Assembly: GCF_008326305.1 (NCBI RefSeq)
Contig: NZ_BIXY01000081.1
Location: 1-33,993 of the forward strand
DNA: 33,993 nt
From: Dictyobacter arantiisoli
GTDB taxonomy: Bacteria > Chloroflexota > Ktedonobacteria > Ktedonobacterales > Ktedonobacteraceae
Reading direction: 5' to 3'
Position numbers and translations under genes: made by a program. Below the pieces are notes generated by a model. It did no database searches. It worked only from the letters and a program-made list of their open reading frames with translations, and had not been told where the DNA came from. Shown here in pieces: positions 10,312 through 14,191 of the stretch. Positions within the stretch are counted from its first letter, which is position 1. Each line of letters starts with the position of its first letter.

Positions 10312-11031
10312 TCAGGCAGAGATAAAGGACACGCCAGGTCCGACATGGAAATCCACATTCGTCACCAGCGAATAATTCGGTCCCCAATTCAGATTGCTGG
10401 CAATCACATGTCCATTGCCCAGCACACGCTCAACCACAGCCACATGGCCCAGAAATGAGGCTCCCTGAACATTGGGCTGCAGAGTAACAATCGATCCGAT
10501 CGAAGGTTGACTTGAGATATTCCAGTGAAAATCCTGTGCACGTGCATTCCACTGCCAGGCATCCGCATTTGTACTCCACGGCACATAGAAGCCATGTAAC
10601 TCAAAGTAGCGCTGACTCGCCCACCAGGTGCACTGCCCATACGGATAGGGATTGATCGCGCCATGGATCCCACTGAGCGATACATTCTTGGCCGGTGCCT
10701 GTGTGATCCCTTGCTGCGGAACACAGACATGCTCGCCCACGAAAATCATATTGGGATTAGACAGATGATTATACGAACTCAACGTCTGCCAGGTCGTGCC
10801 ATGGCTGGCCGCAATCACACCCAGGGTATCCCCACTACGCACCACATAGGTCAAAGAGCCGGATGCGCATGGTGCCTGGGCCAGAGCACCAAATAAGGTT
10901 GGAGCGAAGGCAGTTCCCAACCAGACGAGGCCCAATACGGTCATCACGATGATATGGCCTGCGACAATACTGGCGACGCGATGTTGATGAAAGTAATTCC
11001 ATAGACGTTGACGCTTCTTCATAGCTAACAA
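10312..11031 (-). CDS. LysM-CHAP wall hydrolase, paralog 1
   Basis: About 239 residues. A hydrophobic N-terminal segment (about 20-45) acts as signal or anchor. A LysM module at about 60-105 (YVVRSGDTLGVIAASHGT, NPNMIFVGEHVCVP) binds peptidoglycan. A C-terminal CHAP domain follows, with PYGQCTWWAS (nucleophile Cys), LGHVAVVERV (His) and SNLNWG (polar third residue). CHAP proteins cleave peptide bonds or amides in peptidoglycan. The start is not certain: TTG 11031 has GGAG at 8 nt, while ATG 11022 (MKKRQ) has that site 17 nt away. The gene is about 36% similar by eye to the next gene and shares its upstream block; they arose by tandem duplication. Confidence 0.88.
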   Translation of the reverse strand: MLAMKKRQRLWNYFHQHRVASIVAGHIIVMTVLGLVWLGTAFAPTLFGALAQAPCASGSLTYVVRSGDTLGVIAASHGTTWQTLSSYNHLSNPNMIFVGEHVCVPQQGITQAPAKNVSLSGIHGAINPYPYGQCTWWASQRYFELHGFYVPWSTNADAWQWNARAQDFHWNISSQPSIGSIVTLQPNVQGASFLGHVAVVERVLGNGHVIASNLNWGPNYSLVTNVDFHVGPGVSFISA

Positions 11032-11102
11032 GTGAGCTTCTCCTCTGCTACGCAAAACATACAGGAAATCGAACCTGTCACTTATAATGAATGGATGTCA
11101 AT

Positions 11103-11164
11103 GTGTATATTAGCGCATCTACCGCCAATCATCATGAAATGTCCTGGAACATAGGAGAAAAGGG
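11103..11164 (-). promoter_or_regulatory. Conserved upstream block of LysM-CHAP paralog 1
   Basis: The minus strand carries CCTTTTCTCCTAT, GTTCC, CATTTCATG and GATGCGCTAATATA in the same order and spacing as the block upstream of the second paralog (12135-12204). TAATAT is a plausible -10. Conservation after duplication suggests a shared promoter and regulator site. Confidence 0.55.
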
Positions 11165-11242
11165 AGGGAGGAGGTTAAGACAAATACAGTGCTTTTTATA
11201 CAATTTTAATATGGTCTGCGTCAGGAGCAAACAATAGGACAA

Positions 11243-11271
11243 CAAAAAAGGCCAGATTTTTTATCTGGCCT
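11243..11271 (-). terminator. Intrinsic terminator of LysM-CHAP paralog 2
   Basis: On the minus strand, AGGCCAGAT and ATCTGGCCT form a 9-bp stem with a 5-nt loop followed by a U-rich tract (A run at 11243-11249). It lies 18 nt past the stop of the second paralog. Confidence 0.85.
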
Positions 11272-11288
11272 GTTCTCTCTAAATAAGA

Positions 11289-12071
11289 CTAGTTATGTGT
11301 GATAAAAGCAACGCCTGCGCCAGTAGCAAATACTGAATGAGAAACGATGCCAAGGCCACCGTTCCAGTTCATCTGGCTTACATTTACTTTACCGCCGGCC
11401 AACACCTGCTCAACAACAGCAACGTGACCGACACCAAAGGCACCCTGTGAGCCCGGGCTCAACTGCATGATCGCGCCTACTCGTGGTGTGCTAGAAACAT
11501 TCCAATGAAAATCATGGGCGCGAGCGGTCCACTGATATGCATTCGAATTAGTCGTCCAGGGAACATAAACACCATGCAACTGGTGATAACGCTCATTGGC
11601 CCACCATGTGCACTGACCATATGGGAAGTAGTTACCTGCGCCTAAAATAGCGTTTGACACTTTCATGGCAACTGGGACAGCAGGGATAACTGGAGTCTGG
11701 ACGGTGCTGGTAGCCTTCACAGGGCTCTGATTACTTGTGGCAGGGGCTGCGAAACCAGCTTTAGCAGGAATACAAATTGTCTGATCAACAAAAATAAGAT
11801 CAGCACTCGAAAGATGGTTGTAAGAAGTCAAATTTTGTACAGTGGTCTGATGATCCTTAGCGATATTTCCCAGGGTATCGCCCAAGCGAACGGAATAGGA
11901 AGTATCGCTGCTCGCACAAGAGGCTGAGGCGAAAGCTCCACTCACATTCAGAGACAAACCATTGCCAAGAACCATTAAGGCAAGAGCAGCGAGTATGACA
12001 ACCTGTCCTGCGACAATGCTAACGACTCGATGTCGGCTCAAGAGCTGCAAGATGCTGTGACTTTTCGGCAT
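11289..12071 (-). CDS. LysM-CHAP wall hydrolase, paralog 2
   Basis: A 260-residue exported wall enzyme. The N-terminal hydrophobic segment matches paralog 1 (HRVVSIVAGQVV against HRVASIVAGHII). LysM follows at about 52-100 (YSVRLGDTLGNIAKDHQT, DLIFVDQTICIP), then a Thr/Pro/Val linker of about 35 residues that paralog 1 lacks, then CHAP with PYGQCTWWAN, GVGHVAVVEQV and QMNWNGG. The role is peptidoglycan remodelling outside the membrane. ATG 12071 has AAGGAG at 11 nt; an in-frame GTG at 12101 would lie upstream of that site. A strong terminator follows the stop, so each paralog is its own transcription unit. Confidence 0.9.
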   Translation of the reverse strand: MPKSHSILQLLSRHRVVSIVAGQVVILAALALMVLGNGLSLNVSGAFASASCASSDTSYSVRLGDTLGNIAKDHQTTVQNLTSYNHLSSADLIFVDQTICIPAKAGFAAPATSNQSPVKATSTVQTPVIPAVPVAMKVSNAILGAGNYFPYGQCTWWANERYHQLHGVYVPWTTNSNAYQWTARAHDFHWNVSSTPRVGAIMQLSPGSQGAFGVGHVAVVEQVLAGGKVNVSQMNWNGGLGIVSHSVFATGAGVAFITHN

Positions 12072-12134
12072 AGAAAATGATTCTCCTTTTTTTACGGACA
12101 ATCAGTGCTACCATCGAGAATTCCGGTGCACTGA

Positions 12135-12451: not shown

Positions 12452-12524
12452 GCCAAGATAGCTCAGTTGGTAGAGCATAGCACTGAAAATGCTAGTGTCG
12501 TCGGTTCGATTCCGTCTCTTGGCA
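12452..12524 (+). tRNA. tRNA-Phe (GAA)
   Basis: A full cloverleaf is visible: acceptor GCCAAGA/TCTTGGC, D arm GCTC/GAGC, anticodon stem TAGCA/TGCTA with loop CTGAAAA (anticodon GAA), and T loop TTCGATT. The discriminator base is A and no CCA is encoded. The T stem GTCGG/CCGTC has one T-T mismatch. The gene has its own promoter and terminator. Confidence 0.95.
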
Positions 12525-12540
12525 CTTTCGCATTTTTGGG

Positions 12541-12587
12541 AACCGCGTCAACCCGCTTCGAGCGCAGGCTGACGCGGTTTTCTTTTG
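12541..12587 (+). terminator. Intrinsic terminator of tRNA-Phe
   Basis: AACCGCGTCA (12541-12550) and TGACGCGGTT (12570-12579) form a 10-bp stem followed by a T-rich tract (TTTTCTTTT). Confidence 0.9.
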
Positions 12588-12759
12588 CCTCGAAAAAGGG
12601 CATTTGATACCAAAACACAATTTTCTTATCCTTTAATCGTCTTCGGCCTCTTCATCTTCAAAAGAGCCGTGCTTGTTTTTCCCTCCTTCCTCCTTGTTCC
12701 TGGCTTTCTGTTCGGCTATACTTCTTTCCATCGTCGAGAAGCAAGAAAGGATATGCCTG

Positions 12760-14100
12760 ATGTTCACAAGAAGCTCAGAGGTCCGACAAGAGGGATCCTC
12801 AACAGGCATGCGACCAGAGGTACAGGAAAATCAAAGCGCCAGTTCTTCAACAGGAAATTCTGACGAGTCGCGCCTATTGGGAGCATTGTACCAAGCGCCG
12901 GAAGGGCTGGGAAGGGCTGAGAACAATAGCAATGCACAGATAGAGGGGATGACACAGTTCAACGAACAGAGGTATAAGGATGGGGGGAATAAGCCGAGAG
13001 AGATACCAAAACTGACAGATATAGTGCTCAAGCAACTGGGAACATCAAACCTGTCTGAAATGCTACTATTCCCTCAATCGGACAAGGAGAAACTTTTTCA
13101 GCAAATTTTTTCTGGTACACCTACAGGTCTCACATGGCTTGAGAGTGAGAGGGGCCAAGAGTTCCTGTATAAGGACGGACTCGCGTTTATCCAGAAAGAA
13201 CCTGGCGCCGCATGGTTTCGCGAATACGGAGCTGCCTGGCTTGAGAGTGAGAGAGGCCAAGAGTTCCTGTATAAGGATGGACTTGCGTTTATCCAGAAAG
13301 AACCTGGTGTCGCCTGGTTTCACGAATACGGAGCTGCCTGGCTTGAGAGTGAGAGGGGCCGCGCTTTCCTGGAAAAGGATGGGCTAACTTTTATCGAGAC
13401 AAAATCTGGGGTTGCGTGGTTTCGCGAACACGGAACCACCTGGCTTGATAGTAATGAAGGAGCAGCCTGGTTTGAGAGTGATAGGGGTCAAGCTTTCCTA
13501 TATTGGAACGGACTCGCGATGTTCAAGACGGAATCTTGGGCCGCGTGGTTTCGCGAACACGGAGCTACCTGGCTTAAGAGTAATATGGGCCAAGATTTCC
13601 TAAAAAAGGATGGACTCGCGTTTTTCGAGACAGAACCTGGGGCCTCCTGGTTTCGCGAACACGGAGCTGCCTGGCTTGAGCGTGAGAGGGGCCGATTATT
13701 CCGATACATTGGGAATGATAGTGACCTGGGTTTCCTAGAAAAGAATGGACTCGCGTTTACCAAGACAGAACCTGGGGCCTCCTGGTTTCGCGAACACGGA
13801 GCTGCCTGGCTTGATAGTGATTGGGGCCGATTATTCCTATATAGGGATGGACCAGCGTTTATCAAAACTGAACCTGGGGCCTCCTGGTTTCACGAACACG
13901 GAGCTGCCTGGCTTGCGAGTGATTGGGGCCGCACTTTCCTAAAAAAGGATGGACCAGCGTTTATCAAGACTGAACCTGGGGCCTCCTGGTTTCGCGAACA
14001 CGGAGCTGCCTGGATTAAGAGCGAGACCAACATATGGAAACGTACTCAATTATATGCATATTATAACTCTCTTCGCCTAACGCGTTCGAGAAACTCATAG
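12760..14100 (+). CDS. Trp/Gly tandem-repeat protein of unknown function
   Basis: A 446-residue protein I cannot assign to a family. Residues 1-123 are Ser-, Gln- and Glu-rich, ending in a short helical segment (LTDIVLKQLG, KEKLFQQIF). From about 124 to 425 it consists of eight full copies and one partial copy of a 34-residue unit. Each unit divides into four 8-9-residue steps ending in Gly with an aromatic residue inside: AAWLESERG, QEFLYKDG, LAFIQKEPG, AAWFREYG. Two copies carry insertions of 9-11 residues that extend the same step pattern. The regular period suggests a solenoid or repeated helical hairpins. No signal peptide or membrane helix is present from ATG 12760, which has AAAGGA at 8 nt; a TTG at 12673 lacks a ribosome site. 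Acidic and basic residues alternate on the repeat surface. Confidence 0.75.
   Translation: MFTRSSEVRQEGSSTGMRPEVQENQSASSSTGNSDESRLLGALYQAPEGLGRAENNSNAQIEGMTQFNEQRYKDGGNKPREIPKLTDIVLKQLGTSNLSEMLLFPQSDKEKLFQQIFSGTPTGLTWLESERGQEFLYKDGLAFIQKEPGAAWFREYGAAWLESERGQEFLYKDGLAFIQKEPGVAWFHEYGAAWLESERGRAFLEKDGLTFIETKSGVAWFREHGTTWLDSNEGAAWFESDRGQAFLYWNGLAMFKTESWAAWFREHGATWLKSNMGQDFLKKDGLAFFETEPGASWFREHGAAWLERERGRLFRYIGNDSDLGFLEKNGLAFTKTEPGASWFREHGAAWLDSDWGRLFLYRDGPAFIKTEPGASWFHEHGAAWLASDWGRTFLKKDGPAFIKTEPGASWFREHGAAWIKSETNIWKRTQLYAYYNSLRLTRSRNS
13129..14025 (+). repeat. About eight 102-bp coding repeats
   Basis: Units of about 102 bp encode the 34-residue Trp/Gly repeat. The first two units are nearly identical in DNA, later ones diverge, and units 4 and 6 are longer (about 129 and 135 bp), pointing to stepwise duplication. 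Confidence 0.9.
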
Positions 14101-14191
14101 GTCGGACGACCACTACTTTCCAGAAGTGGGACCGAGAGGGTAAGCTTACTGCTCGTAGAAGTACAGCGACCAAGATGATATTGGTAACACT

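Follow-up and report, generated by a model that had tools for sequence, protein, structure and literature searches.

The alpha-solenoid types described in a recent review are ANK, ARM, HEAT, PPR, PUF, TPR, TAL and Sel1, the TPR unit being about 34 residues long (PMC11514114). The stretch of Dictyobacter arantiisoli DNA analysed here (33,993 nucleotides; hereafter designated the window) encodes a protein with a tandem array of 34-residue units, which, like TPR, are predicted to form one two-helix hairpin each and together a solenoid, whereas TPR profiles gave no match to the array (Pfam, E up to 10). Moreover, models of the ANK, ARM, HEAT, PPR, PUF, TPR, TAL and Sel1 types were all absent from the Pfam matches of the protein at E values up to 10, and the aromatic and Gly positions of the array presumably depart from the TPR consensus. 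The solved folds closest to the modelled array were those of PUF, Armadillo (ARM) and HEAT proteins (Foldseek and VIA-align), which it resembles in general geometry only, with no significant structural match (E ≥ 0.018; Z short of what helical repeats require) and no sequence similarity (Pfam, E up to 10; PDB sequences).

Anatomy and growth of the repeat array

The reading frame of the repeat protein, with AAAGGA located 5' of its ATG, is presented in Table 1 together with the other features of the window. Its N-terminal part of ~106 residues had no family match in Pfam, NCBIfam and PHROG scans, and ~120 residues lacking a family match precede the first 34-residue unit in all. Because neither a signal peptide nor a membrane helix was apparent by eye, the protein is probably cytoplasmic.

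Table 1 Positions of features within the window
Feature	Position	Strand	Remarks
DUF11 protein, 984 residues	1035–3989	-	27- and 36-nt tandem repeats (GGSAPVSGP, GTPVSSTPVSGV)
LysM-CHAP cell-wall hydrolase genes, two in tandem	10312–12101	-	paralogous pair
tRNA-Phe(GAA)	12452–12525	+	ARAGORN; upstream of repeat ORF
Repeat-protein ORF, 446 aa	12760–14100	+	ATG at 12760, stop 14098–14100
N-terminal ~106 residues, predicted disordered	12760–13077	+	pLDDT < 50, residues 4–106
Eight 34-residue units, each of two ~15-residue helices (predicted)	13135–14010	+	W codons start at 13135, 13237, 13339, 13468, 13570, 13672, 13807, 13909
Extra 9-residue step WLDSNEGAA, boundary of units 3/4	13441–13467	+	modelled as extra short helix, residues 232–239
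11-residue insertion LFRYIGNDSDL, unit 6	13696–13728	+	modelled mainly as low-confidence loop, pLDDT 41
Beginning of ninth unit (WIKSE), broken off	14011–14025	+	
Remnant of IS607-type serine transposase N-terminus (SPNAFEKLIGRTTTTFQKWDREGKLTARRS...)	14037–14177	+	other frame than repeat ORF

Each unit consists of four steps of 9, 8, 9 and 8 residues (WLESERGQE / FLYKDGLA / FIKTEPGAS / WFREHGAA), every one of which opens with an aromatic-hydrophobic pair and contains Gly; W1, G7, F10, L11, G15, W27, F28, E30 and G32 are invariant across the units. At the DNA level, the array reached a Tandem Repeats Finder score of 733, far beyond chance, with seven 300-nt copies showing 63–79% identity to a reference, and a five-step aromatic/Gly pattern matched 8 times in the array versus 0 in 100 shuffles. 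The initial annotation had described eight full units, each divided into four 8–9-residue steps with an aromatic residue and Gly, which these results bear out. It had also described two insertions following the same step: WLDSNEGAA is indeed exactly one additional 9-residue step, but LFRYIGNDSDL matches the step pattern loosely.

Units 1 and 2, which share 95 of 102 bases with five of the seven differences at third positions, are the closest pair. Units 7 and 8 (differing at 11 bases) and units 5 and 6 (at 12) are also close, and growth therefore occurred more than once. The DNA likeness of the first two units had been read as recent growth, a fair reading for this pair, although dS between them is still ~0.29. 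Among the units, mean dN was 0.20 and mean dS 0.33, and parsimony changes were distributed 28/18/31 over the three codon positions, with second-position changes depleted (p = 0.04) and a synonymous excess at p = 0.10; evidence for protein-level selection on the array is thus weak. The synonymous codon-choice score of the gene was -0.14, versus 0.05 to 0.25 in the neighbouring genes tested (16 of 16 higher), and such atypical codon choice fits a foreign or young origin.

Genomic setting and distribution

The repeat gene starts 234 bases after the end of tRNA-Phe. In same-genus genomes (loci L037, L038, L042 and L032 were compared), a LysM-CHAP gene and tRNA-Phe are kept, and the content downstream varies from genome to genome. 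One of these genomes carries a duplicate of the tRNA-Phe 3' end and its flank (window 12452–12616) 27 kb downstream (83% over 118 bp), together with a tyrosine integrase gene ~3 kb from tRNA-Phe; in a second, the tRNA-Phe 3' end is duplicated 21 kb downstream. These duplicated ends, together with the integrase nearby in one genome, mark tRNA-Phe as an integration hotspot in the genus. The window itself contains no second tRNA-Phe end. Elsewhere in the window, the DUF11 protein carries long Asn/His runs near its C-terminus.

At the 3' end of the ORF, ~140 bases match the starts of IS607-type transposase genes (DNA matches to L116 and L119). The remnant also has protein matches in its own genome, which harbours intact relatives, and the best of these own-genome matches contains both the Resolvase and the MerR domain of an IS607-type transposase (intact relative L119); the fragment itself, of which the HTH part alone is left in the window, had no Pfam match. 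Since the remnant overlaps the ORF, its stop codon and final ~20 residues are transposon-derived, and it follows from this fusion that the original array was probably longer and is now truncated.

No homologue of the repeat protein was found in its own genome, in the genus and relatives, or among 47 genomes from the order and 400 from the phylum, nor in phage, plasmid and viral-contig collections, the last also searched with a unit profile; the gene is an accessory orphan. Marginal matches in relatives proved on reading to be unrelated proteins, wrong frames or chance, and a match in Salmonella phage SEN22 was rejected as antisense to an annotated gene; a Bordetella phage gave a weak match to the query (E 0.02). 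Likewise, there was no convincing match in Pfam, NCBIfam, PHROG, PADLOC or PDB sequences, PADLOC having been consulted for a defence role; the Pfam matches to CBD_PlyG and HI0933 were rejected, as they covered 15–38 residues and lay under the cut-offs.

The statement of the initial annotation that no named family has this pattern accordingly stands, but a tandem search of the kind that it had proposed in other genomes revealed that the pattern is not unique, a 9-residue-step version occurring in two other phyla. Thus, a scan of ~85,000 genomes for five 8- or 9-residue steps of the form aromatic-hydrophobic...Gly gave 35 loci, two of which, from different phyla, were true in-frame 9-residue-step arrays; the other 33 and all viral matches of this generic pattern were rejected as low-complexity, RTX-like or wrong-frame translations. 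One of the two is a Schekmanbacteria subtilase (PF00082; L071:4445-7114, - strand), whose last ~300 residues form ~34 steps, mostly WLSSPAGQA; the other is a Clostridiales protein of 291 residues (L056:1795-2655) containing a dozen or so steps of the WLKTKKGRE kind. Their arrays aligned with that of the window at 87.8 and 63.8 bits, respectively, the maximum among 1,000 composition- or column-shuffled arrays being 10.9. Moreover, with the Schekmanbacteria repeat as query, the window gene was the best match among the 400 genomes of its phylum (E 4e-11); the matches read in other genomes contain no such repeat.

All three arrays share the step W-L-x-S/T-x-x-G-Q/R-x and align step for step, whereas the two distant ones consist of uniform 9-residue steps instead of 9/8/9/8 and are fused to other domains. 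Since identity is just ~25–31%, their likeness to the window array may also reflect convergence, which cannot be told from homology on such short repeats. Strings of the WLSSPAGQAWL type were not found in the literature searched, and a viral-contig search with the Clostridiales protein found nothing relevant. The subtilase array is an unusual protease appendage lacking a family model. The L114 protein resembles the Clostridiales protein in its N-terminal half (weak match, E 6.5e-4) and has a single YMKTPAYRA motif in an apparent helix in place of an array; both proteins come from small Clostridiales-type genomes, and the WL...G array is present in L056 alone.

A rival reading is that the ORF is decaying or never functional repeat DNA, kept open after slippage or unequal crossing-over by the multiple-of-three length of its repeats, with a product lacking any role. 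Such an origin is consistent with the atypical codon use, the weak selection signal, the single copy with no ortholog to confirm coding, and the replacement of the 3' end by the IS607 remnant. Nevertheless, all eight units and both insertions stay in frame and free of stops, though ~5% of random substitutions would produce a stop codon in the array, the core Trp, Phe and Gly positions are invariant, and the same protein pattern occurs in two other phyla with unrelated DNA. We therefore regard a roleless product as unlikely, though deserving consideration.

Predicted fold and putative role

Two AlphaFold runs with different inputs both gave an all-alpha solenoid in which each unit contributes two helices of ~15 residues. 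In the first, restricted to units 1–3 with a six-row alignment, helices were located at residues 31–45, 50–63, 65–78, 84–96, 99–113 and 116–130 (pLDDT 82, pTM 0.73). In the second, performed on the full protein in single-sequence mode, two helices per unit were found throughout with a disordered N-terminus (repeat pLDDT mostly 74–90, pTM 0.55), two of the five models being fair (mean pLDDT 68, 62, 42, 36 and 28). The models thus contain, by prediction only, the tandem antiparallel helix pairs in one superhelix that define an alpha-alpha solenoid, and the predicted fold is of the general TPR/HEAT/PUF kind. Two steps form one helix and four a hairpin, and the 8–9-residue step is therefore a half-helix, not a structural layer. 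The new solenoid fold suggested at the outset is accordingly retained as a predicted solenoid, but of a known class and with its four steps not being four layers; the array is a new sequence variant within an already known structural class.

The 34-residue helical hairpin, as predicted, could also mean that the array is a true, highly divergent TPR, PUF, ARM or HEAT member and not an independent repeat, and most of its neighbours in Foldseek and VIA-align were indeed proteins of the PUF, importin (ARM) and HEAT types. These scores, however, show only a shared general arrangement and lie in the generic range of helical repeats: a confident match to a solved structure was absent (best Foldseek E 0.018), and VIA Z values reached 9.4 with an rmsd of 11.4 Å over 326 residues, within the chance range for helical repeats. 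With the TPR, PUF, ARM and HEAT models also missing from the Pfam matches and no match among PDB sequences, membership in one of these families appears improbable. TPR chains were not conspicuous among the structure neighbours listed, an absence that carries no weight as to TPR. The regular aromatic...Gly spacing and weak RTX alignments of a relative's 9-residue-step repeat would also allow a solenoid or hairpin repeat of the beta type, similar to choline-binding or RTX proteins, with one strand plus one turn per 8–9-residue step. This reading is very improbable, given that strands are absent from both AlphaFold models, choline-binding and RTX models are not among the Pfam matches, CBD_PlyG, the sole cell-wall module listed, matches over 15 residues and below threshold, and no signal peptide is apparent by eye.

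Collectively, we consider it probable that the product is an alpha-alpha solenoid of the cytoplasm, serving as a putative binding scaffold and encoded by a tandem-duplicated accessory gene cut by the IS607 remnant. Each unit would be a helical hairpin in which a Glu-Pro-Gly turn joins helix A (ERGQEFLYKDGLAFI) to helix B (PGAAWFREHGAAWLE), with Ser/Thr residues capping the helices, a core made of the Trp/Phe-Leu pairs, and regular Gly residues within or beside the helices. The variable unit positions of helix A (5, 6, 9, 12 and 13) lie for the most part on a single face (p = 0.004 for positions 5–19 and 0.037 for 6–19 by permutation), and stacking of the units would align them in a rod-like row; the nearly constant helix B showed no such clustering (p = 0.73). 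Helical repeat proteins usually contact their partners through a variable stripe of this kind, and this makes a scaffold for binding the likeliest role of the array, whose helix A face would probably engage a protein or a nucleic acid, as TPR, PUF and ARM proteins do. The array may descend, through tandem duplication, from a 9-residue WLx[ST]xxGxx peptide as its ultimate source, in an accessory gene of the variable region beside tRNA-Phe, its 3' end presumably having been removed by the IS607 element.

More tentatively, and with some doubt, this peptide may have served repeatedly as the starting point for helical solenoids in distantly related bacteria, yielding the uniform 9-residue arrays of Schekmanbacteria and Clostridiales and, in the window, a more mature 34-residue hairpin with two steps per helix. 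The array would then show an alpha-solenoid family being born from half-helix peptides. The interest would be small if the gene were only a decaying orphan. The Trp-rich, nearly ideal repeat may find use in repeat-protein design. The array bears on the question of how helical repeat proteins originate from short peptides: it retains a small-step signature inside a larger hairpin unit, displays several rounds of duplication within a single gene, and has counterparts with 9-residue steps in other genomes.
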